Assembly: GCF_030730865.1 (NCBI RefSeq) | Contig: NZ_JAVALZ010000001.1 | Coordinates: 806,001 to 870,000, forward strand | DNA: 64,000 nucleotides | Reading direction: 5' to 3' | DNA from: Uliginosibacterium sp. 31-16 | Lineage (GTDB): Bacteria; Pseudomonadota; Gammaproteobacteria; Burkholderiales; Rhodocyclaceae | Shown here: one piece after another, positions 17,306 through 63,522 of the stretch | Numbering within the stretch: the first letter of the stretch is position 1 | Layout of the letters: every line of letters starts with the position of its first letter | Translations under genes and position numbers: made by a program | The notes under the pieces: generated by a model | The model's database searches: none | The model's input: only the letters and a program-made list of their open reading frames with translations | What the model was told of the DNA's origin: nothing

Positions 17306-17416
17306 CTGCAAAGCCGCTTCTGGCCTGCTTCTACAGGCAGACATCCTGCAGACCGGCATCTGGCATGACTCTCAAGGCACGCCGCCCGGAGAACAGCTCC
17401 ACAAGCGGCTCTTCAG
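17306..17416. repeat. Three-unit array of 40-bp periodic dyad repeat (locus 1)
   Basis: Three units start at 17306, 17346 and 17386, exactly 40 bp apart. Each is a 7-nt left arm, 17 nt, and a 7-nt right arm: CTGCAAA/TCTACAG, CTGCAGA/TCTCAAG, CCGGAGA/TCTTCAG. The third unit matches the consensus CYGNAGA-17-TCTNCRG fully, and its right arm contains the stop codon of the LysR gene (17413-17415). The array fills the spacer between the convergent lipoprotein and LysR genes and may work as a terminator, but no T-tract is present. Confidence 0.8.
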
Positions 17417-18324
17417 CCTCCTCCTTGCACTGGCACATCTGTTACACGGATCAGCGCCTGCACGAAACCCTGGACACGCGGCGAATCTTCGCCGCTTCGG
17501 GTCGCCAAAGCCATTACCAGATCGGCGCCTTCATCCGTGAGCGGCACGAAGCTCACACCCCCCAGACGCAACATCGCCATCGGTGCCGACAGCACGGCAA
17601 CCCCCATGCCGGCAGCCACCAGCCCGATCTGTGTGAGGGCTTCGCGAGCCTCCTGCGTCACTCTGGGAACGAAGCCGGCAGCGGCGCAAAGCTGGTTCAC
17701 GTAATCCACCAGACTGGCACCGGAGCCCGCCGGATAACCGATGAAGGATTCGTCGCGGCACTCGGCAATCGACACCTCGGGCAGGCTTGCCAGACGGTGA
17801 TCTTCCGGCACGATCAGGCACAGGCGGTCACGCCGCAATTCCAGCAGACGCAGCCCCGCTGGAGCAAGCACCTCATTGAACCGCACGAAGCCGATATCGA
17901 GCTCACCACGCTGCAGGGCCGCGAACTGGGCGTGGGTATACATCTCGCGCAGGCGCAGGGTCACTCCCCGGAAATCTTCGCGATAGGCTTTCAGCACCTG
18001 GCGCATCTCGCCGATCAGCACTCCGCTGGAGGTGAATCCGATGCGCAGCTCACCGGATTCACCGCGTGCAATGCGCTGCAGTTCATCGGCGACTCCAGCG
18101 CTGGCACCCAGGATCTCGCGAGCCCGCCCCAGCAGATGCTGGCCGGCTTCAGTCAGTTGCACACTGCGTTTGGTGCGGTGGAAGAGCGTAACGCCCAGCT
18201 CGGCCTCCAGCGCCTGAATCTGCTGGGACAAGGGCGGCTGGCCGATGTGCAGGCGCGCCGCCGCGCGAGTGAAGTGCAGCTCTTCGGCAACGGCCAGAAA
18301 ATAACGCAGATGACGCAACTCCAC
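17413..18324 (-). CDS. LysR-type transcriptional regulator
   Basis: 303 aa. N-terminal winged helix-turn-helix (MELRHLRYFLAVAEELHFTR ... LHIGQPPLSQQIQALE) and a C-terminal effector-binding domain of two alpha/beta lobes (LRIGFTSSGVLIGEM, DIGFVRFNEV). It is divergent from an aroE-like gene, the usual geometry for a LysR protein that controls its neighbour. The N-terminal sequence resembles regulators of aromatic or hydroaromatic catabolism, so shikimate/quinate-like ligands are a reasonable guess. Confidence 0.92.
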   Translation of the reverse strand: MELRHLRYFLAVAEELHFTRAAARLHIGQPPLSQQIQALEAELGVTLFHRTKRSVQLTEAGQHLLGRAREILGASAGVADELQRIARGESGELRIGFTSSGVLIGEMRQVLKAYREDFRGVTLRLREMYTHAQFAALQRGELDIGFVRFNEVLAPAGLRLLELRRDRLCLIVPEDHRLASLPEVSIAECRDESFIGYPAGSGASLVDYVNQLCAAAGFVPRVTQEAREALTQIGLVAAGMGVAVLSAPMAMLRLGGVSFVPLTDEGADLVMALATRSGEDSPRVQGFVQALIRVTDVPVQGGG

Positions 18325-18344
18325 TCATATCTCCAGACGATTAA

Positions 18345-18355
18345 TTCATCCTGAA
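18345..18355. promoter_or_regulatory. Candidate LysR operator
   Basis: TTCA-TCC-TGAA is a perfect short dyad in the 102-bp LysR/aroE divergent spacer, 21 nt before the LysR start. LysR-type regulators bind T-N11-A dyads at such positions. An AT-rich run (AAATATATATTGG) adjoins it and may hold the core promoters. Confidence 0.4.
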
Positions 18356-18426
18356 ATATATATTGGACAGGGTGTTACGCCAAACCTAAGATCATCGCCA
18401 TTCCGCTTTCCTGCCCGGAGCCTTTC

Positions 18427-19251
18427 ATGACCGACCGCTACGCCATCATCGGCAACCCCATCGCCCAGGCCAAGTCGCCTGCCCTGCAGAGTGCCTTCGC
18501 CAGACAGTGCGGACAGGACATGGAGTACGGTGCGATCCTCGGCGAGCTGGATGGCTTCGCAGCGGCGGTGCGCGCATTCCAGCAAAGCGGCGGCAAGGGC
18601 ATGAACATCACCATGCCCTTCAAGCTTGAAGCCTTCGAACTGGCCGACGAGCTGACTCCGCGTGGCCGCGCGGCCGGCGCGATCAACATGTTCACGCTGC
18701 GCGCCGACGGCACGATCCTCGGCGACAACACCGACGGCTTCGGCATCATGCGCGACATCACCCACAACCTCGGCCGCTCGCTCAAGGGCGCACGCGTGCT
18801 GTTGCTGGGCGCCGGTGGCGCGGTGCGCGGCACCCTGCTGCCGCTCTTCGACGAACAGCCGGCGGAAATCTTCATCGCTAACCGTACCGCCAGCAAGGCC
18901 GTGGAGCTGGCCGCCGAATTCGGCGCACAGGCTCGCGGCATCCGGCTTGCCGGCGGCGGTTTCGCCGACATCGCCGGACGCTTCGATGTGGTCATCAACG
19001 GTTCGGCGTCTTCCATGACCAACGATGTGCCACCTTTGCCCGCCGGCGTGTGGGACCAGGATTCGCTGGCCTATGACATGGCTTACAAGAAAGAGCCAAC
19101 TGCCTTCGTGCTCGCCGCACGGGCGGCCGGTGTCGGCCAGACCGCCGACGGGCTGGGCATGGTGGTCGAACAGGGCGCCGAGTGCTTCTTCCTGTGGCGC
19201 GGCCAGCGCCCGGATACCGCTCCAGTCATCGCCGCGCTGCGTGTGGCGTGA
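18427..19251 (+). CDS. aroE: Shikimate dehydrogenase family protein (AroE-like)
   Basis: NADP-dependent reduction of 3-dehydroshikimate to shikimate, or a relative acting on quinate or a similar acid. 274 aa. The substrate-binding loop reads NPIAQAKSPAL (SKSP in typical AroE is AKSP here). Catalytic Lys66 lies in MPFKLEAF and Asp103 in GDNTDGFG. The cofactor loop is LLGAGGAVRG, and the usual NRTASKA motif follows. Its own LysR regulator and a TauE-type exporter flank it, so it may be a catabolic second copy and not the biosynthetic AroE. Specificity cannot be settled from sequence alone. Confidence 0.85.
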   Translation: MTDRYAIIGNPIAQAKSPALQSAFARQCGQDMEYGAILGELDGFAAAVRAFQQSGGKGMNITMPFKLEAFELADELTPRGRAAGAINMFTLRADGTILGDNTDGFGIMRDITHNLGRSLKGARVLLLGAGGAVRGTLLPLFDEQPAEIFIANRTASKAVELAAEFGAQARGIRLAGGGFADIAGRFDVVINGSASSMTNDVPPLPAGVWDQDSLAYDMAYKKEPTAFVLAARAAGVGQTADGLGMVVEQGAECFFLWRGQRPDTAPVIAALRVA

Positions 19252-19257
19252 TTCCTG

Positions 19258-19283
19258 TGGGAGCGACGCTCACGTCGCTCCCA
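19258..19283. terminator. Perfect hairpin after aroE (terminator or REP-like)
   Basis: TGGGAGCGACG / CGTCGCTCCCA is a perfect 11-bp stem with a CTCA tetraloop, 6 nt after the aroE stop codon. No T-run follows. The sequence resembles the GGGAGCG-type REP palindromes known from pseudomonads, but only one copy was seen here. Confidence 0.6.
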
Positions 19284-19319
19284 TAACCCTGCTCCGTTCT
19301 TCCGAGGTCCCGCCTCACT

Positions 19320-20093
19320 GTGTCTCACGAACTCCTGATCCTGCTGCCGATCTCCTTCATCACCGGAGCCATCAATGCCGCCATTGGTGGTGGTGGCCTG
19401 ATCGGCATCCCGGCCTTCTATAACGTCCTCACCACTTTTTCACCCGCCCAGATCATGGGGGTGGACAAGCTCTCATCGGTGATGGGCCACGGCATGTCGA
19501 TCCGTCAGTACGCGCGGAACATGAACCTGCCCTGGCGTCTGATGCTGCCAACGGTGATCACCGCCTTTGCCGGCTCCTACATGGGCGTGCGCATGCTCAA
19601 CCTGATGCCCACCCAGTGGATGCGTCCGGTGATCATCGTGGTACTGGCGATCATGCTGGTTTATACGTGGTTCAAACCACAACTCGGGCATGTCGACACC
19701 AGCCGCATCCCGATCCGCGCCGATCTCGCCAAGGGCGCCGCACTGGGACTGGCACTCGGTTTCTACGACGGGTTCATCGGCCCGGGAACAGGCAGTTTCC
19801 TGCTGTTCCTGTTCGTCCACTTTTTCCACTTTGATTTCCTGCGCGCCACCGCCTGCGCCAAGGTTGTGAACTTCGGCACCAACGCCGCCACGCTGGTATT
19901 CCTGATTCCGGCAGGCATGGTCGATTACGGCCTCGCCGTGCCATTGGGCATCGCGGCCATCGGCGGCTCGGTCGTCGGAGCCCGGCTGGCCATGAAAGGC
20001 GGCAACCAGTGGATCCGGCGCCTGTTCCTGATTCTGGCAGTCGGTCTGCTCTGCAAACTGCTGTGGCAGACAATCGCGCCCTGGCTGAGCTGA
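19320..20093 (+). CDS. TauE/SafE-family membrane transporter
   Basis: 257-aa inner-membrane protein with seven to eight predicted helices and the family's glycine-rich N-terminal motif (FITGAINAAIGGGGLIGIPA). The second half contains GFYDGFIGPGTGSFLLF. Members export sulfonates, sulfite or small organic anions. The start is a GTG at 19320. It lies downstream of aroE behind a strong hairpin, so co-transcription is uncertain. Confidence 0.85.
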   Translation: MSHELLILLPISFITGAINAAIGGGGLIGIPAFYNVLTTFSPAQIMGVDKLSSVMGHGMSIRQYARNMNLPWRLMLPTVITAFAGSYMGVRMLNLMPTQWMRPVIIVVLAIMLVYTWFKPQLGHVDTSRIPIRADLAKGAALGLALGFYDGFIGPGTGSFLLFLFVHFFHFDFLRATACAKVVNFGTNAATLVFLIPAGMVDYGLAVPLGIAAIGGSVVGARLAMKGGNQWIRRLFLILAVGLLCKLLWQTIAPWLS

Positions 20094-20190
20094 GCGTCCG
20101 CCCGCTGCGGTTGTACCGTGAGACGTTTCTGATCTATCGTTGTGCTAGGGCTTGCTCCCAAACGCCTGAACCCAACCCAGAGAGAAGATC

Positions 20191-20640
20191 ATGACAAACG
20201 TACGCCAGATCCTGGATGCCAAGAAGAATCAGCAGATCCACTCGGTCAGCCCCCAGGCCTCGATCTTCGAGGCGCTGGAGTTGATGGCGAAAAAAGATGT
20301 CAGCGCCGTACTGGTGCTTGAAGACGAACGTCTGGTAGGCATCTTTACCGAGCGCGACTACGCCCGCAAAGTCATTCTGAAAGGCCGCAACTCGCGAGAC
20401 ACCCGGATCAGCGAGTTGATGACCCAGAACCTCCTGACCATCTCGCCCAGCCAGACCGTGGAAGACGTGATGACGATCATGACGGAGAACCGTTTCCGCC
20501 ATCTTCCGGTTGTCGAGCGCGGCCAGCTGATCGGCATCGTGACGATTGGTGACGCGGTCAAGACCGTGATCGACCAGCAGCAGCAAACCATCAACCAGCT
20601 GGCAGGCTACATTGCCGGAGATATTGCCCCGGGGATGTGA
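20191..20640 (+). CDS. CBS-domain pair protein
   Basis: 149 aa consisting almost entirely of two CBS motifs (Bateman module): VSAVLVLEDERLVGIFTERD near residue 37 and FRHLPVVERGQLIGIVTIGD near 97. Stand-alone modules of this kind bind adenosine nucleotides, and the partner protein is unknown. AGAGAGAAG precedes the ATG. A terminator follows. Confidence 0.88.
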   Translation: MTNVRQILDAKKNQQIHSVSPQASIFEALELMAKKDVSAVLVLEDERLVGIFTERDYARKVILKGRNSRDTRISELMTQNLLTISPSQTVEDVMTIMTENRFRHLPVVERGQLIGIVTIGDAVKTVIDQQQQTINQLAGYIAGDIAPGM

Positions 20641-20660
20641 GGCGTCCGCCCCGTCCAGTC

Positions 20661-20690
20661 ATGGCCGATAGCATGATCGGCCATTGTTTT
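20661..20690 (+). terminator. Terminator after the CBS gene
   Basis: Perfect 9-bp stem ATGGCCGAT / ATCGGCCAT with a 6-nt loop, followed by TGTTTTG. Confidence 0.75.
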
Positions 20691-20774
20691 GTCTGCGAGA
20701 TGCGTATTGTTCTCAATACACCGTTGATTTGATTGGATATTTTTCGTCTGAAAGTAAAATTCAGGGCAAAAACC

Positions 20775-20804
20775 GGTGATAATCCGGCTCCTCCGGAAAT
20801 CACC
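20775..20804 (+). promoter_or_regulatory. Leader hairpin just upstream of the cation-efflux gene
   Basis: GGTGAT-AA-TCCGG pairs with CCGGA-A-ATCACC around a CTCCT loop (11 bp with a small internal loop), ending 9 nt before the ATG at 20814. The only purine-rich candidate ribosome binding site, CCGGAAA, lies inside the 3' arm, so the hairpin could limit translation. I do not recognise it as a known metal riboswitch. If translation started at the TTG at 20733, the hairpin would be inside the coding region. Confidence 0.45.
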
Positions 20805-20813
20805 CGTCATGCC

Positions 20814-22585: not shown

Positions 22586-22586
22586 G

Positions 22587-23486: not shown

Positions 23487-23487
23487 T

Positions 23488-23934
23488 TCAGCTCGCCTCA
23501 AGCAGGGCCATCACCTCGGCCTCGTCTTCCACGATGGCAAAGGCGCTGCGCACCTCGGCCAGAATCGGCCGCGGCAGGCCGGCGCGGATGTCGATGAAGA
23601 CCCAGGCGGTCTCCGCACGCGCGATCACCTGACGATCACTCTCACGCCAGAAAAGGTACTTGCGCGTACTGCTGCGCTCGCCCATGTCAGCCACCCAGGT
23701 CACCAGATTGAGCGGATCGTCGAGCAGCGCCGGGCGCAGGTATTCAATGAAATGCGAGCGGATCACCCAGGAACAGCGCTTCTCGAAATAGCGCTCCATC
23801 GGCCAGCCCAGATCCGTGGTGTGGGCGATCGCCACATCCTGCATCCACTGCAGATACGCGACGTTATTGACGTGACGATGCACGTCGATGGCTTCGGCGG
23901 GAACGGCAAAACGCTGGCTGAAAATACGGGTCAT
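23488..23934 (-). CDS. Acyl-CoA thioesterase, hotdog fold (4HBT/YbgC type)
   Basis: 148-aa single hotdog-fold protein. The family signature is AIDVHRHVNNVAYLQWMQDV, with the catalytic Asp replaced by His-rich HRHVNN as in FadM/4HBT-II members, and RSHFIEYLRPALL follows. It probably hydrolyses acyl-CoA. First gene of the thioesterase-EamA-EamA unit. The ATG at 23934 is chosen because upstream in-frame sequence has no domain similarity. A dyad-repeat array begins right at its start. Confidence 0.85.
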   Translation of the reverse strand: MTRIFSQRFAVPAEAIDVHRHVNNVAYLQWMQDVAIAHTTDLGWPMERYFEKRCSWVIRSHFIEYLRPALLDDPLNLVTWVADMGERSSTRKYLFWRESDRQVIARAETAWVFIDIRAGLPRPILAEVRSAFAIVEDEAEVMALLEAS

Positions 23935-24044
23935 GGCAGATCGGCTCGGGTACTGGGCTGCAGGGCAGGCTGGCCGGAGAGGCGCACAGCGCCTCGCTGC
24001 ACACACAGGCATGCTGAAGAAGCTTGCTGCGTGCGGGTTCTGGC
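23934..24044. repeat. Dyad-repeat array upstream of the thioesterase (locus 2, partly decayed)
   Basis: Left arms TGGCAGA (23934), CCGGAGA (23974) and CTGAAGA (24014) are spaced exactly 40 bp apart. Right arms are degraded: GCTGCAG at 23957, then no clear match, then TCTGG at 24039. The array sits in the promoter region of the thioesterase-EamA-EamA unit (spacer 23935-24117). Confidence 0.5.
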
Positions 24045-24117
24045 GACTGTGTGGCATGCAACCTGAACATACCAGAACGTATTCTGCCATGCGGCAGTGC
24101 AGCGTACCCGATCCGTT

Positions 24118-26806: not shown

Positions 26807-26889
26807 TCGCAGAGCCGCATGCAGCGGGCTTCTCCGGCATGCACGCCGGAAAGGTAAGCGGGGCGCGGCTCTTCAGCACACGCCCCGCC
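26807..26889. repeat. Two dyad-repeat units and terminator-like hairpin (locus 3)
   Basis: Units start at 26807 (TCGCAGA-17-TCTCCGG) and 26846 (CCGGAAA-17-TCTTCAG), 39 bp apart. The second unit merges with a stem GCGGGGCG / CGCCCCGC at 26858-26888. The first unit shares 39 of 44 aligned bases with the copy at 44429-44472, and the hairpin is nearly identical to the one at 32758-32788. It lies between the convergent rhomboid and phaC genes and may terminate both. Confidence 0.75.
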
Positions 26890-26913: not shown

Positions 26914-28731
26914 CTATCGGGAGTTCTTGTCCAGCCGTGCTTTCACGTAGGAGCCGGGGGCATCTTCCAGCACCTTGAGCTTGCCCTTGAGCGGGTCCCG
27001 CGCGGCCACTTCACTGGAATCCTGCGCCTTGACCCAGGCCTGCCAGTCGGTCCACCAGGAGCCGGGCTGCTGGGTGCAGCCGGCCAGCCAGTCTTCGCTA
27101 TCTGCCGGGCGCTTGTCATCGTCGCGCACCCAGAAGCCGTACTTGTTGGCGACCGGCGGATTGACGATACCGGCAATGTGGCCGGAGCCGCCCAGCACGA
27201 AGCGCACGTTGCCGATGCGCTGGGCTCCGGCGTAGGTGCTCTTCCAGGGCGCGATGTGATCTTCAATGGTGGAGATGAAGTAGCACGGCACCTTGATCTT
27301 GCCGAGATCGATCTTGACCCCGCAGATCTCGATGCCGCCCGGCTCGCGCAGGGCATTTTCCATGTACATCTTGCGCAGATAGAAGCTGTGCATCTTGGCC
27401 GGCATGCGCGTGGAATCGGAATTCCAGTACAGCAGGTCGAAGGGGAAAGGGTCCTTGCCAAGCAGGTAGTTGTTCACCACGAAGGACCAGATCAGATCGT
27501 TGGCGCGCAGCATGTTGAAGGTGCCGGCCATCTCGGAACCTTCCAGATAGCCGCGCTCGGCCATCTTCTTCTCCAGCGCCTGCACCTGTTTCTCGTCGAT
27601 GAACACGCCCAGCTCGCCGGGCTGCGAGAAATCCAGCAGTGAGGTGAAGAAGGTCCCCGAAGCAATGCGCTTGTCTTTCTTTGCCGCCATCCAGGCCAGC
27701 GCAGTGCCGAGCAAGGTGCCGCCCAGGCAATAACCGGCAGCATTGATTTCCTTGACACCGGTCTGCTCAATCACCGCATCCACTGCGGCCAGCACGCCTT
27801 CGCTGAGGTATTCATCGAAGCCCTTGTTGGCAAGCCAGGCATCCGGATTGACCCAGCTGATCACGAACACGCTGTGCCCCTGGTCGACGGCCCACTTGAT
27901 GTAGGAATTCTTCTCGCGCAGATCCAGAACGTAGTACTTGTTGATCCATGGCGGCACGATCAGCAGCGGTCGCGTCGACACCTTGGCGGTGCTCGGCGTG
28001 TATTGCAGCAGCTGCATCAGTTCGTTCTGGAACACGACCTTGCCGGGTGTGGTGGCGACATTCTTGCCGAGTTCGAACGCCGAGGTGTCGGTCATGCGGA
28101 TGCGCAGCTTGCCGTCCCCCTCCTCCACATCGCGCAGCAGATTGTTGAAGCCCTTGATCAGGTTCTGACCATGGCTGCGCATGGTCTCCTGGAAGACCTC
28201 GGGATTGGTCAGGGCAAAATTCGAGGGGGCAATCGCGTCGATGTACTGGCGCGTGTAGAAATTGACCTTTTTCCGGGTTTCCTCGTCAAGGCCATCAACG
28301 CCGGAAACCGTGTCGTGGATATGCCGTGCGGCAATCAGGTAGCTCTGCTTGACGAAGTCGAAGAGGAAATGTTCCTGCCAGTCTTCGTGCTTGAAGCGCT
28401 TGTCGGATTTTTCAGGTGCGGCGATCGGCTCGGGCGACATGCCCCACATGCGCTGCATGGAGTGTTGCCACAGCGAAAAGTAGTCCCACACCAGATTCAT
28501 CTGGTTCTGCGCCAGCCGGTAAGGATTGGCCAGCAGCTTGTTCATCATGTCCAGAAAGGCCTGCGCCACCCCGAGTTCATCACTGGGCGGCTGGACGCCT
28601 TTTTTCACCTCCCGCTGCATGTGCTCGGTGAGCAGCTTGGAGGCGCGCTGCGCCACTTCGGCATAGGTTTTCGCCACTTCCTGCGGATCGGGCAATTCGG
28701 CCTTGGGTGCGTCAGTCGGTGCAGTTGCCAT
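26914..28731 (-). CDS. phaC: Class I poly(3-hydroxyalkanoate) synthase
   Basis: Polymerises 3-hydroxyacyl-CoA into PHA granules. 605 aa, typical class I length. N-terminal PhaC_N region, then an alpha/beta hydrolase core with the lipase-like box GYCLGG (nucleophile Cys335), catalytic Asp in TIEDHIAPW and His in GGSGHIAGIV. The C-terminal end reads PGSYVKARL, typical for class I. No phaA, phaB or phaP lies next to it. A beta-lactamase-fold gene is 34 nt upstream on the same strand. Confidence 0.96.
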   Translation of the reverse strand: MATAPTDAPKAELPDPQEVAKTYAEVAQRASKLLTEHMQREVKKGVQPPSDELGVAQAFLDMMNKLLANPYRLAQNQMNLVWDYFSLWQHSMQRMWGMSPEPIAAPEKSDKRFKHEDWQEHFLFDFVKQSYLIAARHIHDTVSGVDGLDEETRKKVNFYTRQYIDAIAPSNFALTNPEVFQETMRSHGQNLIKGFNNLLRDVEEGDGKLRIRMTDTSAFELGKNVATTPGKVVFQNELMQLLQYTPSTAKVSTRPLLIVPPWINKYYVLDLREKNSYIKWAVDQGHSVFVISWVNPDAWLANKGFDEYLSEGVLAAVDAVIEQTGVKEINAAGYCLGGTLLGTALAWMAAKKDKRIASGTFFTSLLDFSQPGELGVFIDEKQVQALEKKMAERGYLEGSEMAGTFNMLRANDLIWSFVVNNYLLGKDPFPFDLLYWNSDSTRMPAKMHSFYLRKMYMENALREPGGIEICGVKIDLGKIKVPCYFISTIEDHIAPWKSTYAGAQRIGNVRFVLGGSGHIAGIVNPPVANKYGFWVRDDDKRPADSEDWLAGCTQQPGSWWTDWQAWVKAQDSSEVAARDPLKGKLKVLEDAPGSYVKARLDKNSR

Positions 28732-30885: not shown

Positions 30886-31746
30886 ATGCAACTCACCCTG
30901 ATCAGCGGCCTCTCCGGCTCCGGCAAGAGCATCGCCCTCAAACTGCTCGAAGACACCGGTTACTACTGCGTCGACAACCTGCCGGCAACCCTGCTGCCAC
31001 AGCTCGTAGCCCAGCTCCAGGCCGAAGGCTACAAGCGTGTCGGCGTGGCCATGGATGTGCGTTCCGGTGCCAGCATCGAAGCGCTGCCGGAAATCATCGC
31101 GCAGGTGCGCGAACAGGTGCGTGACCTGCGTTTCATCTTCCTCGATGCGCGCGACGAGGCCCTGATTGCACGCTATTCCGAGTCCCGCCGCCGCCATCCA
31201 TTGGCCGAAGAACACACCACCTTGCAGGAAGCCATCAGCCGCGAACGCCACCTGCTCACCCGGATCGCCGAGATCGGCCAGCGCATCGACACCAGCGCCC
31301 TGCATCCGAATGTGCTGCGTGCCTGGATCCGCGAACTGATCGAATCCGCCCCGAGCGCCGGACCAACCCTGCTGTTCCAGTCCTTCGGTTTCAAGCACGG
31401 TCTGCCGGTGGATGCAGATTTCGTGTTCGACGTGCGCTGCCTGCCCAACCCCTTCTACGACCCGGCCCTGCGCAGCCTGACCGGGCTGGATCAACCGGTC
31501 ATCGAGTTCATGCAGGCCTCCGACGACGCCCTGCGCATGGCACAGGACATCCGCAAATTCATTGCCGACTGGCTGCCCGCCTTCTGCCACGACGGGCGCA
31601 GCTACTTCACCGTTGCCATTGGTTGCACTGGCGGCCAGCACCGCTCGGTGTATCTGGCCGAATGGCTGGCGCGCGAATTCGCCGGGCAAGCCAAGGTGAT
31701 GGTGCGCCATCGCTCGCTCGACGCCGGGCTGAAGAAGTCCGCCTGA
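30886..31746 (+). CDS. rapZ: RNase adapter / nucleotide-binding protein RapZ
   Basis: 286 aa. Walker A GLSGSGKS at residues 6-13, and a C-terminal domain with LFQSFGFKHGLPVDADFVFD and IGCTGGQHRSVYLAEWLA, which in E. coli binds small RNAs and GlcN6P and steers RNase E. In many betaproteobacteria rapZ follows hprK; here DUF1289 precedes it and no PTS gene is visible. The last codons and the stop codon lie inside a dyad-repeat unit. Confidence 0.93.
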   Translation: MQLTLISGLSGSGKSIALKLLEDTGYYCVDNLPATLLPQLVAQLQAEGYKRVGVAMDVRSGASIEALPEIIAQVREQVRDLRFIFLDARDEALIARYSESRRRHPLAEEHTTLQEAISRERHLLTRIAEIGQRIDTSALHPNVLRAWIRELIESAPSAGPTLLFQSFGFKHGLPVDADFVFDVRCLPNPFYDPALRSLTGLDQPVIEFMQASDDALRMAQDIRKFIADWLPAFCHDGRSYFTVAIGCTGGQHRSVYLAEWLAREFAGQAKVMVRHRSLDAGLKKSA

Positions 31747-31759
31747 CGCGACTCTCCGG
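31729..31759. repeat. Dyad-repeat unit spanning the rapZ stop codon (locus 4)
   Basis: CTGAAGA at 31729-31735, 17 nt, TCTCCGG at 31753-31759: a full match to the arm consensus. It is followed by GCATGC, as in other copies. The left arm encodes Leu-Lys-Lys near the RapZ C-terminus. Loop comparison suggests reverse orientation. The GCATGC also contains the start codon of the next gene. Confidence 0.65.
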
Positions 31760-32664: not shown

Positions 32665-32788
32665 TCGCAAACCCGCATCTGGCGGACATCTCGCGGCATG
32701 TCTCGTGAAAACCCGCGAAAACATTACGTCTTCACGCACCCCGTCCGTCAACGCAAACGGGGCGTGGCTCTTCAGCACGCGCCCCGTC
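32665..32788. repeat. Three-unit dyad-repeat array with terminator-like hairpin (locus 5)
   Basis: Units start at 32665, 32705 and 32745, exactly 40 bp apart: TCGCAAA/TCTCGCG, GTGAAAA/TCTTCAC, CCGTCAA/TCTTCAG. The first unit resembles those at 26807 and 44436, including the GCATG that follows. The last unit merges into a GC hairpin, ACGGGGCG / CGCCCCGT (32757-32787), which probably terminates both convergent genes. Confidence 0.7.
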
Positions 32789-32804: not shown

Positions 32805-34427
32805 TCAGCCGTCGATGCCCTGGCTGGCCAGATATTCCTCATAGGTGCCACGGTAGTCGATGATCTGCCCGTCTTCCTTGATTTCAAGAATGCGGGTCGC
32901 CAGCGAATCGACAAACTCGCGGTCATGCGAGACGAAGATCAGCGTGCCGCCGAAATCCATCACGCCGGAATTCAGCGACTCGATCGACTCCATGTCCAGG
33001 TGATTCGTCGGTTCATCCAGCAGCACCACGTTCTTGCGCTGGAGCATCAGGCGACCAAAGAGCATGCGGCCCTGTTCGCCCCCGGAAATCACCTTGACGG
33101 ATTTCTTCACGTCGTCGCCCTTGAACAGCAGGCGGCCGAGCGTGCCACGGATCAGGGTTTCGGCGTCGTCGCCTTCGTAACCGCCTTCACGCACGTAGCC
33201 GGAGATCCAGTCGGTGAGGCTTTCGTCGACCTCGAAATCCTTGGCGTGATCCTGCGCGTAGTAGCCGAGCTTGGCCTTTTCGGCCCACTTGATCGTGCCC
33301 GAAGTCGGGGTGAGCTCGCCCACCAGCAGTTTCATCAGCGTGGTCTTGCCGACGCCGTTCTCGCCGATGATCGCCACGCGATCGCCGGCATCGAAGGTCA
33401 CGGTGAGCTTGTTGATGATCTTGCGGCCCGACTCATAGGCAAAGGACAGGTTCTCGATCTCCACGGCCTGACGGTGCAGTTTTTCCTTCTCGTCGAAGTC
33501 AAAGCGGATCCACGGATACTGGCGTGATGAGGGCTTGAAGTCCTCGATCTTGATCTTCTCGATCTGCTTGGCACGGCTGGTGGCCTGACGCGCCTTGGAC
33601 TTGTTGGCCGAGAAACGGCGCACGAATTCCTGCAACTCGGCGACCTTTTCCTTGGCACGCGCATTGTCGCGCGACTGCTGTTCGCGGGCCTGCTGGGCGG
33701 CTTCCGTGTAGTCATCCCAGTTGCCGGGATAAGTCTGGATGCGGCCGTAGTCCAGATCGGCCATGTGCGTGCATACCTGATTCAGGAAGTGGCGGTCGTG
33801 GCTGATGATGATCATCGTGCTGTTGCGGTTGTTCAGTACGTGTTCCAGCCAGCGGATGGTGTTGATGTCGAGGTTGTTCGTCGGTTCATCCAGCAGCAGG
33901 ATGTCCGGGTTCGAGAACAGCGCCTGACACAGCAGCACGCGCAGCTTCCAGCCCGGCGCCACTTCGCGCATCGGGCCATTGTGCTGGCTGGTCGGAATGC
34001 CCACGCCCAGCAGCAGCTCACCCGCACGCGCTTCGGCGGTGTAACCGTCGTACTCGGCGAAGTGGTGCTCCAGTTCGGCCGCGTGCATGTAGTCGTCTTC
34101 GGTCGCCTCGGGATTGGCGTAGATCGCATCCTTCTCCTGCATGCAGGCCCACATCTGCTCGTGGCCCATCATCACCACGTCGAGCACGCGCACGTCTTCA
34201 TACGCGAACTGATCCTGGCGCAGGAAAGCCATGCGCTCACCCGAATCCAGCGCCACGTTGCCACCTGAAGGCTCCAGCACGCCGGCCAGAATCTTCATGA
34301 AGGTCGACTTGCCGGCACCGTTGGCACCGATCAGGCCATAGCGATTGCCGTCGCCGAACTTGATGGAAACGTTTTCAAACAGGGGCTTGGCCCCGAACTG
34401 CATGGTGATGTTGTTGGCGATGAGCAC
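32805..34427 (-). CDS. ABC-F family ATPase (YbiT/Uup type)
   Basis: 540 aa with two ABC cassettes and no membrane domain: Walker A GANGAGKS and GENGVGKT, signature [11 protein letters not shown] in the second cassette and a divergent [12 protein letters not shown] in the first, Walker [12 protein letters not shown] and [11 protein letters not shown]. The interdomain linker is the charged helix that reaches the ribosomal P site in ABC-F proteins. The sequence is close to E. coli YbiT throughout. Start chosen at GTG 34427, preceded by AGGGA; the longer frame adds a Cys-rich leader without similarity. Confidence 0.92.
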
Positions 34428-34760
34428 TGCGGAATCCCTGAATACCGGCGCGCGACAAATGCCGCAGCGCAAAAGCCCGTAATTCTAACGCAGTGCAAAA
34501 ATCGCCGATAGCTCAATGGCTTGGGCAGAAACCGTGAGCTATTTGGCACCGATAACAAAAAGTTGTGTTCCCGGTGCCAAAACCCTTCCGTTACCGGAAA
34601 CATTGGATTAGGATTTTCCCTGACAGGATAAGCAGAACTTTTCCGCTCATAAGCTCCTGTTTGAAAGCCGGCCAATGCCCCGCTTTTCCAAAATACGTAT
34701 CCACGTTCAGCCGGCAAGTCCATGCGGCAAGTCCAATGAAGAAGCAAGAAGGAGATAGGG
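34428..34760. promoter_or_regulatory. 333-bp divergent spacer with a perfect 10-bp inverted repeat
   Basis: No gene is seen here. TTTGGCACCG at 34542-34551 and CGGTGCCAAA at 34572-34581 are exact reverse complements, 20 nt apart. That places the half-sites three helical turns apart, centre to centre, so a protein dimer could bind them from one side. A second small dyad, TTCCG..CGGAA, lies at 34586-34599. The region is more AT-rich than its surroundings and must contain the promoters of the ABC-F gene and of the poly-Ser lipoprotein gene. A GAAGGAGA ribosome binding site lies at 34748-34755. Confidence 0.5.
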
Positions 34761-35822
<1,062 letters not shown>

Positions 35823-35963: not shown

Positions 35964-36018
35964 GCCATGCCTGTAAGGCATGGCAATCTGAAGAAGCCCA
36001 CCCGATGCGCCTCTGCAG
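35964..36018. repeat. Small palindrome and single dyad-repeat unit (locus 6)
   Basis: GCCATGCC / GGCATGGC (35964-35984) is a perfect 8-bp hairpin. Next to it, CTGAAGA-17-TCTGCAG at 35988-36018 is a full match to the dyad-repeat consensus; its loop fits better in reverse orientation. It lies just before the ubiX stop codon between convergent genes. Confidence 0.65.
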
Positions 36019-36024
36019 ACAGGT

Positions 36025-36630
36025 TTATTTACTTTCGCCCCAGCGCTGTATGAGCTGATGGGCGACACCGATCTGGTCAAGAATCCGCGCAACAACGAAA
36101 TCCACCAGATCCTGCACGCTCTGCGGGTGGTGGTAGAAGCCGGGGTTGGGCGGCAGGATGACCACGCCCATGCGCGAGAGGCGCAGCATGTTTTCCAGAT
36201 GCAGGGTGGAGAACGGTGCTTCGCGCGGCACGATCACCAGCTTGCGGCCTTCCTTGATGCACACATCGGCGGCGCGCTCGATCAGGTTGCTGGACAAGCC
36301 GGCCGCCACCGCGGCCAGGGTGCCCATGGTGCATGGGCAGATCACCATCGCGTCCGGCGGGTTGGTGCCGCTGGCAATCGGCGCAAACCATTCCTCGCGG
36401 CCGTAGACCACCAGCTGATCGGCGCTGGCGCCAAAACGCGCACCCAGCATCGCCGCGGTTTCGGCGGTGTTGCTGCTCAGCACCAGATCCATTTCCTGCC
36501 GGGCGACGATCTGTGCAGCCTGGGTGTAGACAAGCTGCACGCGGCATCCGGCGGCCAGCAGGCTTTCGATCAGGCGCAGGCCGTAGGGCATGCCGGACGC
36601 GCCAGTGAGGGCAAGGGCGATGGTTTTCAT
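36025..36630 (-). CDS. ubiX: Flavin prenyltransferase UbiX
   Basis: Makes prenylated FMN for UbiD-type decarboxylases in ubiquinone synthesis. 201 aa. N-terminal FMN-binding LALTGASGMPYGLRLIE, the conserved CPCTMGTLAAVAAGLSSNL loop and REAPFSTLHLENML, all typical of the UbiX/Pad1 family. It is the last gene of a minus-strand row aldose epimerase, S4 protein, ubiX. No ubiD is adjacent. Confidence 0.95.
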   Translation of the reverse strand: MKTIALALTGASGMPYGLRLIESLLAAGCRVQLVYTQAAQIVARQEMDLVLSSNTAETAAMLGARFGASADQLVVYGREEWFAPIASGTNPPDAMVICPCTMGTLAAVAAGLSSNLIERAADVCIKEGRKLVIVPREAPFSTLHLENMLRLSRMGVVILPPNPGFYHHPQSVQDLVDFVVARILDQIGVAHQLIQRWGESK

Positions 36631-37847: not shown

Positions 37848-37958
37848 CTGGAGAGCCGCTTGTGGCAAGGCTCTTCGCAATGCCTTCCGGAAAACCCTCG
37901 CCGATCAAGCCTCTTCAGCACCACCACCCGAAGAAGCCCGCCAGGGGCAGCTAGCTTT
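37848..37958. repeat. Three-unit dyad-repeat array (locus 7)
   Basis: Left arms at 37848 (CTGGAGA), 37888 (CGGAAAA) and 37928 (CCGAAGA), exactly 40 bp apart. Right arms TCTTCGC at 37872 and TCTTCAG at 37912; the third right arm is lost. It fills the 222-bp spacer between the aldose epimerase and hydrolase genes (both minus strand). Confidence 0.7.
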
Positions 37959-40849: not shown

Positions 40850-40920
40850 CTGGCGAAGCGCAGGTGACGGCACGGTACCGGCAGACGGGCTGGAGAAGCA
40901 GGCGCGGAGCGGGTCTGCAG
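40850..40920. repeat. Dyad-repeat units before the CCA-transferase 3' end (locus 8)
   Basis: CTGGAGA-17-TCTGCAG at 40890-40920 is a full consensus match. CTGGCGA at 40850 is a degenerate left arm exactly 40 bp upstream, and GCGGTGA at 40810 may be a third. The loop fits reverse orientation. It lies in the spacer between the PBP1C-like and cca genes. Confidence 0.6.
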
Positions 40921-44435: not shown

Positions 44436-44506
44436 TCGCACAGCCGCATCCGGCGGGCCTCTCCGGGCATGCCATCGGCACAGGCCCGCCAGCCGCCGCT
44501 CTGCAG
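44436..44506. repeat. Two dyad-repeat units in the AsmA/mscL divergent spacer (locus 9)
   Basis: TCGCACA-17-TCTCCGG at 44436-44466 and CGGCACA-17-TCTGCAG at 44476-44506, exactly 40 bp apart. A further CCGGAGA at 44518 may begin a third, misphased unit. The first unit is the sister of that at 26807. Apart from this array, the 311-bp spacer 44330-44640 holds no gene that I can support. It is divergent, so the repeat cannot be a terminator here. Confidence 0.7.
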
Positions 44507-44640
44507 CCACCCCCGGTCCGGAGAGTCTGCGGCGATGCATGACAACGGTTGCCCATCGCCCCGCTTTTGCGGGACACTGCCGCTCATCCCGGCAGCCAGT
44601 CGGGCCTCATAAACCGGTTTTTGAAAACAGGGGGTCATTC

Positions 44641-50117: not shown

Positions 50118-50188
50118 CCGAAGACCGGCGCCCCGCGCGGCTCCCGGAGCAGCATGCCCGGAGAAGGCCACCAGGTGCGTGTCTTCGG
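50118..50188. repeat. Two dyad-repeat units (locus 10)
   Basis: CCGAAGA at 50118 with a worn right arm (TCCCGG), and CCGGAGA-17-TCTTCGG at 50158-50188, exactly 40 bp apart. The second unit matches the consensus fully. The region is between the methyltransferase and a hypothetical gene, both on the minus strand. Confidence 0.65.
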
Positions 50189-51992: not shown

Positions 51993-52023
51993 TCCACGTT
52001 AGGCATGCGCCAGGCCTCTCCGG
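51993..52023. repeat. Degenerate dyad-repeat unit (locus 11)
   Basis: Right arm TCTCCGG at 52017-52023 preceded by GGCC as in other copies; the left arm (TCCACGT) is not recognisable. A stray CGGAAGA lies at 52046. Located between the alcohol dehydrogenase gene and the gatA 3' end. Confidence 0.35.
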
Positions 52024-55655: not shown

Positions 55656-55699
55656 CGTATTTCACGTATCACGTTTCACATGTGACGCAGCACTGACGC

Positions 55700-57237: not shown

Positions 57238-57259
57238 GTAGTGGATTCGCTCCCCAGGC

Positions 57260-59164: not shown

Positions 59165-60290
59165 CCTGACCGATCTGCGCCTGTTCCTGTTGCGTCTGGT
59201 GCGCCCGATCGACCCCTTCCTGCTGGGGGTCACCCTGTGCATCATGGCCTGCGCCTACCTGATGATGCTCAGCGCCTCGCCCGAGCGCATGAACGCGCAC
59301 ATCCTCAATATCATCGTGGCCCTGGGCGTCATGTGGATCATCGCTAGCCAGCCGCCACCACGCCTGCACAGCTTCGCCCTGCCGCTGTATGTGCTCGGCG
59401 TGCTGTTGCTGATCGGTGTGGCCCTGTTTGGCGACATTTCCAAGGGCGCGCGACGCTGGCTGAATCTGGGCGTGATGCGCATCCAGCCCTCGGAACTGAT
59501 GAAGATCGCCATGCCGCTGATGCTGGCCTGGTATTTCCAGAAACGCGAAGGCGCCCTCAAGGTGCGCGACTTCCTGATCGCCACCCTGCTGCTCGCCATG
59601 CCGGTCGGCCTGATCGCGGCGCAGCCCGATCTGGGCACAGCCATCTTGGTGCTGGGCGCTGGGGTTTTCGTAATCTTCTTTGCCGGGCTGTCGTGGAAAC
59701 TGATCATCCCGGTGGGCGTGCTGGGCATTGCCGCGGTCGTCGCGGTCATCATCTTCCAGACCGACATCTGCGCACCGGAGGTGAACTGGCCAGGCCTGCA
59801 CGACTATCAGAAACATCGCGTGTGCACCCTGCTCGATCCCTCGTCCGACCCGCGCGGCAAAGGCTTCCACACCATCCAGTCAACGATTGCAGTGGGCTCC
59901 GGCGGCTTCCTCGGCAAGGGCTGGCGCCAGGGCACCCAGACCCATCTGGACTTCCTGCCCGAACGCCACACCGACTTCATCCTCGCCGTGATCTCGGAGG
60001 AGTTCGGCCTGGCCGGCGTGCTCATCATCGCCATCCTGTACTGCCTGCTGATCGCCCGCGGGCTGATGATCGCGAGCAACGCCGCGACCCTGTTCGCACG
60101 CCTGCTGGCCGGTTCGGTCACAATGATCTTCTTCACCTATGCCTTCGTGAACATGGGCATGGTCAGCGGCATCCTGCCCGTGGTCGGCGTGCCGCTGCCG
60201 ATGGTGAGCTACGGCGGCACCGCACTGGTGACCCTGTGTCTGGGCATCGGCATCCTGATGAGCGTTCAGCAGCACCGCCGCCGACGCTGA
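59157..60290 (+). CDS. rodA: Peptidoglycan glycosyltransferase RodA
   Basis: 377 aa SEDS-family polymerase with ten hydrophobic segments. ARRWLNLGVMRIQPSELMKI, the catalytic Asp region FLPERHTDFILAVISEEFG and the C-terminal VGVPLPMVSYGGTALVT are diagnostic. Works with PBP2, encoded directly upstream with an 8-nt overlap. Confidence 0.96.
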   Translation: MINLTDLRLFLLRLVRPIDPFLLGVTLCIMACAYLMMLSASPERMNAHILNIIVALGVMWIIASQPPPRLHSFALPLYVLGVLLLIGVALFGDISKGARRWLNLGVMRIQPSELMKIAMPLMLAWYFQKREGALKVRDFLIATLLLAMPVGLIAAQPDLGTAILVLGAGVFVIFFAGLSWKLIIPVGVLGIAAVVAVIIFQTDICAPEVNWPGLHDYQKHRVCTLLDPSSDPRGKGFHTIQSTIAVGSGGFLGKGWRQGTQTHLDFLPERHTDFILAVISEEFGLAGVLIIAILYCLLIARGLMIASNAATLFARLLAGSVTMIFFTYAFVNMGMVSGILPVVGVPLPMVSYGGTALVTLCLGIGILMSVQQHRRRR

Positions 60291-60314
60291 TGCCGGATTC
60301 GGGAAAGGGATGAC

Positions 60315-61331
60315 ATGAGAGCCACCCAACGCCTGCGTTTCATCGCCTGCCTGTGCAGCGGCGCCCTGCTTGCCGCTTGCAGCACCGTGCCCTACGAGCG
60401 GCCCGCAGAGCCACGCTCCAGCCAGCCAGCCTCGAAACCCGCGCCAGCAGGCGCTGCGCAGGCACCCGGCGTGCTGAATCCGCCCGTCACCACCCAGAAA
60501 GGTGGCGGCTTCTACAAGGATGACGGCCCCGGCGAGAACATCCCGCCAAATCTTGCCGACATCCCCGATGCAGTACCGCGCGTCGAACCGATCCGTGCCG
60601 CCAACACGCGCCCCTACGCCGCACTGGGCCAGACCTTCACACCGCTGAAGGAACTTCAGCCCTTCAGCCAGACCGGCATCGGCAGCTGGTACGGCAAGAA
60701 ATTCCATGGCGCCAAGACCTCCAGCGGCGAGCGCTACGACATGTACGGCATGACCGCCGCGCACCCGACCTTGCCGATCCCGAGCTACGCCCGCGTCACC
60801 AATCTGGCCAACAACCGCAGCGTGGTGGTGCGCGTCAATGACCGCGGCCCCTTCCTGCACAGCCGGATCATCGACCTCTCGTATGCCGCGGCCTGGAAGC
60901 TCGGTTACGTGAATCAGGGCAGTGCGCGCCTGCAGGTCGATCTGATCGTGCCGGATGAGCTGGACAGCCTGATCGCCGCCGCCCCTGCCACGCCTGAAAC
61001 CGAGCCGGCTCCGCCAAGCGCCAGCGCATCGGCCCCGGCCGCAGTTGCCGTCGCCCCTTCACCTGCCGCACCCACAGTGGACAGCCCGGCGAATGTCGAC
61101 AGCGGCATTTTCCTGCAGCTTGGCGCCTTCGCCTCCAGTGCAAACGCCGACAGCTTCCGCGACTACGTACAGGGCGAACTCAAATGGCTGCAACACGCCG
61201 TCCAGACCCGCCTGATCGGCGACAAGTACCGTCTGCACGTCGGCCCGTTTGCCAGCGCCAGCGAGGCCCGTGGCGTGGGCGAGCGGATCGCCGCGGCGAT
61301 CCGGGTTCAGCCTTTCGTGGTGACCCGCTGA
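60315..61331 (+). CDS. rlpA: Septal/lytic transglycosylase lipoprotein RlpA
   Basis: 338 aa. Lipobox LAAC (Cys at about 20), Pro/Ala-rich linker, double-psi beta-barrel domain (GIGSWYGKKFHGAKTSSGER ... VVVRVNDRGPFLHSRIIDLS with the catalytic Asp) and a C-terminal SPOR domain (IFLQLGAFASSANADSFRDY). Cleaves denuded glycans at the septum. The stop codon lies inside the first unit of a repeat array. dacC, which often follows, is missing. Confidence 0.94.
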   Translation: MRATQRLRFIACLCSGALLAACSTVPYERPAEPRSSQPASKPAPAGAAQAPGVLNPPVTTQKGGGFYKDDGPGENIPPNLADIPDAVPRVEPIRAANTRPYAALGQTFTPLKELQPFSQTGIGSWYGKKFHGAKTSSGERYDMYGMTAAHPTLPIPSYARVTNLANNRSVVVRVNDRGPFLHSRIIDLSYAAAWKLGYVNQGSARLQVDLIVPDELDSLIAAAPATPETEPAPPSASASAPAAVAVAPSPAAPTVDSPANVDSGIFLQLGAFASSANADSFRDYVQGELKWLQHAVQTRLIGDKYRLHVGPFASASEARGVGERIAAAIRVQPFVVTR

Positions 61332-61438
61332 AGAGCCGCACCGGACGAGCCTCTTCAGCGCATCACGCTGCAGAATGAGGCTGGATGCACCTCTCCAGAC
61401 ACCTGACCTGCAGATGCCCGCCGCACGCGGATCTTCGG
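61328..61438. repeat. Canonical three-unit array of the 40-bp periodic dyad repeat (locus 12)
   Basis: Units start at 61328, 61368 and 61408, exactly 40 bp apart; all three match the consensus in every specified arm position: CTGAAGA/TCTTCAG, CTGCAGA/TCTCCAG, CTGCAGA/TCTTCGG. The first can extend to a 10-bp stem CGCTGAAGAG / CTCTTCAGCG, and its left arm contains the rlpA stop codon. The loop of the second unit fits in reverse orientation. The rest of the spacer to 61576 holds no gene. Confidence 0.88.
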
Positions 61439-61576
61439 GACTGTGCATTTCCAGCAGGCTTCCCCGCCGATTTGCCGGATAATCCCGGCTGAGCGACGCA
61501 ACTCTTGAAGTCTGAGGGCGCGCCTCAATATGCCAAGAAATCAGCCGGCCTCCACGGCTGGCACCGGACCCGATTC

Positions 61577-61846
61577 ATGTCTCAAGAACGCACCAGCCTG
61601 CTCGAATTCCCCTGCGATTTTCCGCTCAAGATCATGGGTGCGCGCCACGACGCCTTTGCCCAGACCATCGTCGCCGTCGTCCTCGTGCACGCCCCGGATT
61701 TCGACCCGGCCACCCTGGAAATGCGCCCCTCCAAGGCCGGCAACTACCTGTCGCTGACCTGCACCATCCGCGCCACTTCGCAGCTCCAGCTCGACACCCT
61801 GTACCGCGAACTCTCCTCGCACCCGATGGTGAAGGTTGTCTTGTGA
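61577..61846 (+). CDS. ybeD: YbeD/DUF493 family protein
   Basis: 89 aa, ferredoxin-like fold (LLEFPCDFPLKIMGARHDAF ... LSLTCTIRATSQLQLDTLY ... HPMVKVVL). Conserved just upstream of lipB; may modulate lipoate metabolism. ATG 61577 chosen by family length. Overlaps lipB by 4 nt (GTGA). Confidence 0.92.
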   Translation: MSQERTSLLEFPCDFPLKIMGARHDAFAQTIVAVVLVHAPDFDPATLEMRPSKAGNYLSLTCTIRATSQLQLDTLYRELSSHPMVKVVL

Positions 61847-62469
61847 GCCTTGTGCACCGGCCGCTGGGTAGCGTCGATTACGTCACGACCTTCGAGGCCC
61901 AGAAACGCTTCACCGCCGAACGTGGCCCCGACACGCCGGACGAGCTGTGGCTGCTGCAACATCAGCCGGTCTACACCCTGGGCCTGGCGGGGAAGCCGGA
62001 GCATCTGCTGATCCCCAGCGAAGTGCCGGTCGTGAAGATCGATCGGGGCGGCCAGATCACCTATCACGGCCCCGGTCAGGCGGTGGTTTATCTGCTGATC
62101 GACCTGGCCCGCCGCAATCTCAAGGTACGCGAACAGGTCACGTTGATGGAGCAGGCCATGCTCGACGTGCTGGCCAGCCACGGCATCACCGCCGAACGCC
62201 ACGAAGGCGCTCCCGGCGTATATGTGCGCGACGCCAAGATTGGCGCGCTGGGCCTGAAAATCGCCCGCGGCTGCAGCTATCACGGCCTGTCACTCAACGT
62301 CGATCTCGACCTCGCCCCCTTCCTGCGCATCAACCCCTGCGGCTACGAAGGCTTGCGCAGCACCAGCCTGAAAGAAGAAGGGGCGACTGTCACGACCGAC
62401 GCCGTGCTGGCACAATTGGCGACTCGCCTGACCGAACTCCTCGAACGCGACTACCCCCTCGCGCGATAA
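61843..62469 (+). CDS. lipB: Octanoyl-ACP:protein octanoyltransferase LipB
   Basis: Transfers octanoate from ACP to lipoyl domains. 208 aa, GTG start overlapping ybeD. Motifs: [45 protein letters not shown] with the catalytic Lys, and [10 protein letters not shown] with the catalytic Cys. Followed by lipA after 16 nt. Confidence 0.96.
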
Positions 62470-62485
62470 AACAGAAAGTCCCCCG

Positions 62486-63433
62486 ATGAGCACCGACAAC
62501 CCCAAGAAACTCCGTGGCGCCGACAAAACCGCGCGCATCCCGATCAAGATCGTGCCGGCCGAAAAGCTCAAGAAGCCCGAGTGGATCCGCATCAAGCTCG
62601 GCACGGCCGAAGAAACCGCGCGCTTCAACGAGATCAAGGACACCCTGCGCGACCACAAGCTGCACACCGTGTGCGAGGAAGCCTCCTGCCCCAACATCCA
62701 CGAATGTTTCGGCAAGGGCACGGCCACCTTCATGATCATGGGCGACATCTGTACGCGCCGCTGCCCCTTCTGCGACGTCGGCCACGGCCGCCCCGAACCG
62801 CTCAATGCGGATGAGCCGAAAGAACTGGCACAAACCATCGCCGCCATGCGCCTCAAGTACGTGGTGATCACCTCGGTGGACCGCGACGACCTGCGCGACG
62901 GCGGGGCTGCACACTTCGTTGAATGCATCCAGGCAACCCGCGCCGCCAGCCCGCGCACCCAGATCGAAGTACTGGTGCCGGATTTCCGCGGCCGCATGGA
63001 AGTCGCACTGGAAATCTTCAACCAGGCACCGCCGGACGTGATGAACCACAACATGGAAACCGTGCAGCGTCTCTACAAGGCGGCGCGCCCCGGCGCGGAC
63101 TACGCCTATTCGCTGAAGCTGCTGAAAGAGTTCAAGGCCATGCATCCGCAGGTGCCGACCAAGAGCGGCCTGATGGTCGGGCTGGGCGAGACCGACGAGG
63201 AAATTCTGGAAGTGATGCGCGACCTGCGCGCCCACGACGTGGAAATGCTCACCATCGGCCAATACCTGCAGCCCTCCGGCGGCCACCTGCCAGTGCTGCG
63301 TTACGTCACGCCCGAGACCTTCAAGATGTTCGAGACCGAAGCGCTGAAGATGGGCTTCAAGAACGCCGCCTGTGGTCCGATGGTCCGCTCCAGTTACTGG
63401 GCAGATCAGCAGGCGCAGGGCGCAGGCGTTTAA
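62486..63433 (+). CDS. lipA: Lipoyl synthase LipA
   Basis: Radical-SAM enzyme that inserts two sulfurs into octanoyl groups. 315 aa. Auxiliary cluster motif [13 protein letters not shown] and radical-SAM motif [10 protein letters not shown] are both intact, and the C-terminal RSSY sequence ([11 protein letters not shown]) is present. Works directly after LipB. Confidence 0.97.
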
Positions 63434-63451
63434 CAGGAAAACAACAGCTTC

Positions 63452-63522
63452 CTGCGAAGCCGCACCCCGCCTTGCTCCCCGGCAAGGCATGCTGGAGAGC
63501 CTCATCCCGCGCGGCTCTCCAG
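63452..63522. repeat. Two dyad-repeat units after lipA (locus 13)
   Basis: CTGCGAA-17-TCCCCGG at 63452-63482 (worn) and CTGGAGA-17-TCTCCAG at 63492-63522 (perfect), exactly 40 bp apart. The second can form a 10-bp stem CTGGAGAGCC / GGCTCTCCAG with an 11-nt loop. It may terminate lipA, but lacks a T-tract. Confidence 0.8.

Follow-up and report, generated by a model that had tools for sequence, protein, structure and literature searches.

The window analysed here, a 64,000-nt stretch of the Uliginosibacterium sp. 31-16 genome (contig NZ_JAVALZ010000001.1, positions 806,001 to 870,000), contains copies of a dispersed repeat family whose complete element consists of three oriented 31-nt imperfect dyads at a 40-bp period. 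The family is real, and its elements are mostly extragenic, lying mainly behind stop codons. They probably represent a compound repeat comparable to bacterial interspersed mosaic elements (BIMEs), repetitive extragenic palindromes (REPs) or the inverted REP doublets known as REPINs, which would have been spread by some mobiliser and then retained at the 3' ends of genes, serving as a gene-end element in both directions.

The original prediction, drawn from the letters of the window, had placed 28 units at 13 sites and counted nine without any mismatch. Mismatch scoring returned the same count, with 0 mismatches in nine units, 1 in five, 2, 3 and 4 in four units each, 5 in one, and 6 in the unit at 23934, which barely qualifies. 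Written as CYGNAGA-N17-TCTNCRG with up to two mismatches, the unit occurs 35 times in the window; the expectation from shuffles is 9.06, and the largest shuffle gives 17. The dyad and its period thus stood, but the full element is larger than had been proposed, having three units, ends that are inverted copies and a degenerate middle unit. The genome comprises 3.90 Mb in eight contigs, of which 1.255 Mb (32%) was analysed as the window and 60 further stretches. Two units at the fixed distance of 40 bp, with at most three mismatches, were found 361 times in the genome versus nine times for the reversed pattern. When spacings were counted in the first 855 kb between units having no more than one mismatch, 80 bp occurred 35 times and 40 bp 18 times, a clear excess as one Markov-shuffled copy gave none; therefore, the element has three units over 111 bp, the middle one being the most degenerate. 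Outer units 80 bp apart define 65 elements, compared with 0, 0, 4, 3 and 1 at the control distances of 60, 70, 90, 100 and 120 bp.

Each unit consists of an arm (CYGNAGA), a 17-nt core and a second arm (TCTNCRG), and units are separated by 9-nt spacers. The consensus of unit 1 is CYGNAGA-GCCGC-...-GGCGG-...-TCTNCRG, and units occur in both orientations, as predicted, the last unit being the reverse complement of the first; the outermost half-sites are therefore the most conserved parts. These half-sites, CYGNAGAGCCGC in inverted positions, amount to terminal inverted repeats of the kind found in miniature inverted-repeat transposable elements (MITEs). A profile built from 64 of the 65 outer-unit elements and used at E<=1e-3 recovered 143 distinct elements in the first 855 kb and 60 in 400 kb of stretches outside its training set. 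Over the whole 1.255 Mb, it found 202 elements, versus one in reversed and none in Markov sequence, so that matches are far from equally common in control sequence. By extrapolation from these 202, the genome would carry about 600 copies.

Within a half-site, positions 8-12 often hold one word of a small set (CCGC., GCCCG, GTCCG, CTTG, CAAGG or CCAAT), and the two halves of a unit hardly ever carry CCGC together. In the middle unit of 129 elements of strain 31-16, CCGC occupies the left half of 17, the right half of 28 and neither half of 84, but never both (0/129, with 3.7 expected). The 36 elements examined in G064, a genome of another genus, have it in both halves of units 1, 2 and 3 in 0, 1 and 0 cases, respectively, where 3.6, 6.2 and 2.6 are expected; for units 1 and 3 of strain 31-16 (2 with 2.2 expected, and 0 with 0.0 expected), the counts are uninformative. 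Thus, the units are best seen as oriented modules rather than perfect palindromes.

Placement was assessed on gene calls from a simple, purpose-written hexamer caller, by which the coding fraction is 0.81. Forty-seven of the 143 elements lie between convergent genes, 57 between tandem genes, 11 between divergent genes and five at stretch edges. The other 23 fall inside predicted open reading frames, compared with 81% of random points, so the family is not as common in coding regions as elsewhere. In tandem gaps, the median distance of elements is 14 bp from the preceding stop codon and 125 bp from the start codon that follows. Expressed as occupancy, 48/96 convergent gaps, 56/489 tandem gaps and 11/82 divergent gaps contain an element. 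The 40 elements placed in G064 are distributed alike, with 15 convergent, 17 tandem (median 20 bp), none divergent, seven inside and one at an edge.

The history of the copies was followed at orthologous sites. Seven sites of the window were compared with the syntenic genome G005, which shares one of them (50118-50188) and has no element seen at six; one of these six, behind the gene ending at 63433, holds a single dyad with 3 mismatches. At the sites behind the phaC and ABC-F genes, none of the seven and six same-genus relatives, respectively, has units 40 bp apart, four and three of them have one 3-mismatch dyad somewhere in 420 bp, and several carry, by eye, an ordinary stem with a run of T. 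Another apparent shared site, between G005 (L117) and strain 31-16 (L046), was rejected because the sites are not the same and only the genes next to them are related.

In the other genus, copies persist in place. Of eight G064 elements compared with the sister species G119, seven occupy an identical position there. L141, one of the eight, came to light via the stretch around a known G119 element, and six of the other seven are shared. Substitutions, counted without the unshared element L149:683, affect 86/651 unit positions, 39/126 spacer positions and 155/491 ungapped flank positions (13% versus 31% and 32%). The substitution rate of the units is therefore lower than that of spacers and flanks by a factor of about 2.4 (Fisher p 4e-6 for the spacers and 7e-14 for the flanks), and the cores are at least as constrained as the arms (40/357 versus 46/294). 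None of the seven shared elements has a deletion in its G119 copy, and the alignment of L149:9714 contains a 3-base insertion in the last arm, while 139/630 flank positions are gapped. One of the shared elements, L144:16152, has had most of its middle unit and spacers replaced. Between L149:9714 and the corresponding G119 site (L222), both complementary halves differ in their core word (CCACG/CCAAT), as though a hairpin had served as the template; this double change could also come from repair by template switching. Constraint in place is thus shown in one other genus, at eight sites. In strain 31-16, six close copy pairs differ by 0.144 at arm and CCGC columns versus 0.321 elsewhere, a contrast that detection bias may exaggerate, and selection in place would probably act there as well.

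The distribution of the family is patchy. It was scanned with a sequence-only model at E<=1e-3, matches being counted on both strands, so the number of places is lower than that of matches. Among eight genomes of the genus, strain 31-16 has at least 150 matches, three others have 24, 6 and 2, and four have none. In the taxonomic family, where the best 23 candidates per genome were scored, at least 21 of 150 genomes match, in at least 16 of 68 genera, eight of the 21 having one match only. In the order, 4 of 200 genomes match at E<=1e-4, namely strain 31-16 and three of one other family; weak model matches in G026, G204 and G324, belonging to another family of the order, suggest that this kind of repeat reaches a second family. 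The 31-9-31-9-31 layout recurs in G064 with different arms, and a model-free spacing test there gave nine spacings of 40 bp and five of 80 bp, the shuffle giving none. The exact 111-bp outer pattern, searched in 84,980 genomes, hit 10 contigs at one site each, from unrelated organisms judging by their titles, in a collection from which the records of strain 31-16 and its near relatives are possibly absent. The exact pair pattern had no match in viral contigs, and one G064 element had none in plasmids. One 31-16 element matched 15 plasmid records, and in the 10 listed the match covers query positions 5-58, which lie ahead of the element or at its very beginning and not across it. Six 12-base consensus strings searched in 5.39 million papers occurred in 10, none of which is on repeats, judging by title and the start of the abstract. 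A description of this repeat was not found, which is weak evidence since the coverage omits most subscription papers.

In place and shape, the family resembles REPs, yet it is without REP-defining features. As in REPs and BIMEs, there are hundreds of copies of imperfect palindromes of about 30 nt (31-nt units, within the usual 20-40 nt), alternating in orientation, grouped in short regular arrays and located outside genes near stop codons in convergent or tandem gaps. Unlike these, the element is without the GTAG/CGTC tag and without a copy-flanked RAYT (REP-associated tyrosine transposase) gene found, occurs in genomes without a Y1_Tnp match and has a strict three-unit layout of 40 bp, and compensating changes hardly maintain its palindromy. 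REPINs and the doublets of the P. fluorescens R0 type are likewise compound with inverted ends, but they have two units where this element has three, with the variable one in the middle, and they bear the tag. MITEs are also short, gene-free and numerous with inverted ends; here, each unit is itself a dyad and no clear target duplication is seen. Resolvase res sites comprise three dyads in about 115 bp. This element differs from them by its regular 40-bp period and its hundreds of copies behind genes. The REP/MITE-like family proposed at first therefore fits as regards the number of copies, their extragenic position behind genes and the compound build with inverted ends, and fails on the REP tag and RAYT arrangement, which were both looked for.

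According to the favoured explanation, a mobiliser would have spread the copies through the genome, as suggested by some 600 diverged copies, element-free orthologous gaps and patchy occurrence from genus to genus. The copies would then stay put, kept by selection at gene 3' ends. There, the tandem hairpin or a protein-bound array might pause or stop RNA polymerase, perhaps with Rho, whose involvement is reported for REPs in PMC2817692. It may also protect the 3' end of the mRNA, most of all where two genes converge. Because the element is near-identical on both strands and typically lies within about 20 bp of stop codons, a two-way gene-end device is suggested, which would function at transcript ends in both directions; this biochemical role is proposed from sequence. 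In raw counts that speak for this explanation, a T-run hairpin is present in 21/47 convergent gaps of 60-700 bp with an element versus 15/20 without.

Several observations weigh against this explanation. No mobiliser was found when the Y1_Tnp genes were examined, no parent transposon having been searched for. No clear target duplication was seen either, since the best of 2800 boundary/length tests on 86 elements, which are old copies, gave seven three-base matches versus 1.4 expected, with no consistent border. The gene calls come from a home-made caller, and REP-like placement may also arise if insertion is tolerated only behind genes. In-place selection in strain 31-16 rests on one shared site and the six close copy pairs. 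If hairpins were the working part, covariation of the arms should be clear, whereas it is weak or nil in strain 31-16 and in G064. Whole unit halves in G064 even pair below independence (Stouffer -3.86, -4.82 and -2.63), as expected because oriented modules occur in both orientations. Finally, substitutions at paired sites in the seven orthologous pairs kept pairing in 46/132 cases versus 47/142 for the null.

As the original prediction also allowed, the element could instead be a site array for a dimeric DNA-binding protein, either a nucleoid organiser or a transcription roadblock reading half-sites singly, although this is considered unlikely. It would account for half-sites that are symmetric yet independent (at the pair 1/29, TA, TG, CA and CG occur in 24, 17, 14 and 8 of 64 elements) and for the fixed spacings of 17 and 9, the spacer being free in sequence but ungapped in the seven shared orthologous elements. 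However, a single motif does not explain cores that are conserved in place (40/357 substituted) though different between loci. Four of the eight genus genomes have no match at E<=1e-3, which is odd for a nucleoid protein, and no candidate protein was identified.

A similarly doubtful proposal holds that the copies are inert, selfish, MITE-like debris surviving only where insertion is harmless, behind genes. The lineage-specific abundance in the genus and the scattered occurrence in the family, with its many single-match genomes, are what such debris would leave. By contrast, the slower change of units than of spacers and flanks, the smaller differences of the six close copy pairs at arm and CCGC columns and the filling of half of the convergent gaps are not, and near-identical recent copies are absent among 87 elements (22% of the genome; best identity 0.86).

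The family might also constitute a gene-end system lying outside RAYT and REP altogether, a possibility held only tentatively. Its three-unit elements would be made of six half-sites, each joining a near-fixed arm to one of a few core words, and CCGC would as a rule occupy no more than one half of a unit. They would have spread in one species after another before becoming fixed in place, so that many convergent gene pairs would share this two-way device as their end instead of a T-run terminator.

Less credence is given to a genuine REP/BIME mobilised by a RAYT, that is, a Y1 transposase. The REP-size imperfect palindromes, their alternating orientation and high copy number point in this direction, as does their gene-end position, REPs between convergent genes lying mostly within 20 bp of 3' ends in the two species shown in PMC3733652. 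The 31-16 genome has two Y1_Tnp genes, and the element-bearing genomes G050, G047, G019 and G119 have 3, 2, 2 and 1 Y1_Tnp matches. However, the tags are not enriched in 516 flank and spacer windows (four for each of 129 elements), where GTAG or CTAC occurs 14 times and CGTC or GACG 16 times versus about 18 and 48 expected. A RAYT gene flanked by two inverted copies was found at neither Y1_Tnp locus of strain 31-16. At one (L034), no unit with at most two mismatches is present in the surrounding 11-kb stretch. The other has a family element on one side only, a few hundred bases off (L049:10378 and 10418), and with one element per 6 kb this proximity can be due to chance; judged by eye, a different repeat of the GTAG type also flanks this gene. 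No Y1_Tnp match is present in G064 and G042, which carry the element, and 75 of the 150 family genomes have one with or without it. Moreover, the palindromy is hardly kept by complementary changes. According to PMC2817692, a RAYT gene invariably lies between two inverted REPs, and the palindromy of REPs is preserved. Since tag, RAYT arrangement and preserved palindromy are all lacking, the family is not filed as REP. A Y1_Tnp (RAYT-like) gene at about 1200-2250 of L023 (G000:C2) stands among copies of a different repeat starting with GTAGGGTGCGC and ending with GCGCACC, which resembles a REP family of its own.

The structured RNA with pairing arms that had also been proposed holds insofar as the best elements fold better than shuffles, while their arm pairs barely covary. 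The 60 best-scoring elements have a mean folding z of -2.83 against dinucleotide shuffles, compared with -0.48 for 60 other intergenic pieces, and two of the orthologous loci, one of them L149:9714, keep strong folds. In 64 elements, and likewise in 87, arm pairs are paired about as often as independent columns predict. In an alignment of 40 elements (A1), 77.0% of arm cells are paired versus 75.2% with shuffled partners, a value reached by 10/500 shuffles. With 129 elements, a weak excess of covariation is seen in unit 2 (Stouffer 2.92) and unit 3 (2.96) but not in unit 1 (-0.15), and the 36 G064 elements display none (-0.77, -0.77 and -0.39). Long-range pairings are without covariation in strain 31-16, and three candidate structures were rejected. 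A stem joining 15-22 with 53-60, with a Stouffer value of 4.44 in a scan of all column pairs (six null maxima, 3.5-3.9), was dropped because validation on 42 independent elements gave -1.36. A three-way junction (unit 1 left with unit 3 right, unit 1 right with unit 2 left, unit 2 right with unit 3 left), suggested by single loci, was unsupported across copies (Stouffer -1.57, 0.61 and -0.69 in strain 31-16; -0.31, -0.81 and 2.49 in G064, where one of the three weakly covaries). Hairpins presenting the arm as a loop are in slight excess only, 12/217 ends having at least 7 pairs against a null mean of 5.8 and a null maximum of 10.

That ordinary intrinsic terminators or structured RNAs share this sequence by chance is very improbable: their low folding energy and a few loci with the element in a stem, some before a short T stretch (by eye; behind the genes at 26914 and 32805, and at L150:14835), are set against consensus flanks without the T-run that should follow a terminator stem, no Rfam match at gathering score in the window, the weak or absent covariation and the stem that failed validation. 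Unit 1 of the G064 element at L150:14835 forms a stem that has T-runs on each of the two strands, and an apparent compensating change is seen in it in the sister species. A terminator-like stem, GGGGCG...CGCCCC, is common to the segments 26846-26887 and 32745-32786, which follow unrelated genes; flank and element core build this stem, and its loop holds the arm.

Within the window, no strand is assigned to the elements, which range from complete to barely recognisable. The best-matching complete element is at 61328..61438 (mismatches 0, 0 and 0; profile E 2.9e-19), and none is found in the orthologous gap of G005. Another complete three-unit element, at 17306..17416 (mismatches 1, 1 and 0; E 8.5e-23), lies between the convergent predicted genes 16988-17257 (+) and 17413-18324 (-). 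The three-unit element at 37848..37958 (E 9.2e-20) has a disturbed third unit, and the orthologous gap of G005, 73 bp instead of 223 bp, has no element. A three-unit array at 32665..32775 (mismatches 4, 3 and 2; E 2.7e-6) is located between convergent genes, behind the ABC-F ATPase gene (32805-34472, -), and a decayed one at 23934..24044 (mismatches 6, 3 and 4; E 1.9e-8 over 23964-24038) has a first unit that is barely recognisable. The original prediction omitted the decayed three-unit array at 15168..15278, with units at 15168, 15208 (very decayed) and 15248 (mismatches 2, 5 and 3; E 2.4e-12). It also omitted the third unit at 44518, 2 bp off the period, of the array at 44436..44548, which lies between divergent genes and for which no element is found in the G005 orthologous gap.

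Two-unit copies comprise those at 26807..26876 (39 bp apart; mismatches 1 and 1; E 1.9e-9), between convergent genes behind the polyhydroxyalkanoate synthase gene (26914-28731, -), at 40850..40920 (mismatches 4 and 0; E 2.5e-6) and at 63452..63522 (mismatches 3 and 0; E 4.7e-10), behind the gene 62486-63433 (+). The two-unit element at 50118..50188, present at the orthologous site of G005, has kept its outer arms while its interior has diverged. Single units are found at 31729..31759 (0 mismatches; E 5.9e-4), overlapping the end of the predicted gene 30886-31746 (+), at 35988..36018 (perfect; profile match 35964-36026) and, decayed, at 51993..52023 (4 mismatches), outside the profile matches at E<=1e-3. 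The window also contains two similar low-complexity stretches rich in TTC/CTC, at 34868-35086 and 63768-63938.

If the favoured explanation is true, several genera of one bacterial family would have turned a mobile repeat into a widespread feature of gene 3' ends, and this without the REP hallmarks, namely the tag and the transposase arrangement. Strain 31-16 and its sister genomes range in copy number from about 600 to none detected, and in one genus most of the compared copies are fixed and under constraint. The old question of the role of extragenic palindromes in their host could thereby be tested directly, by setting orthologous genes that carry the element against those that lack it.

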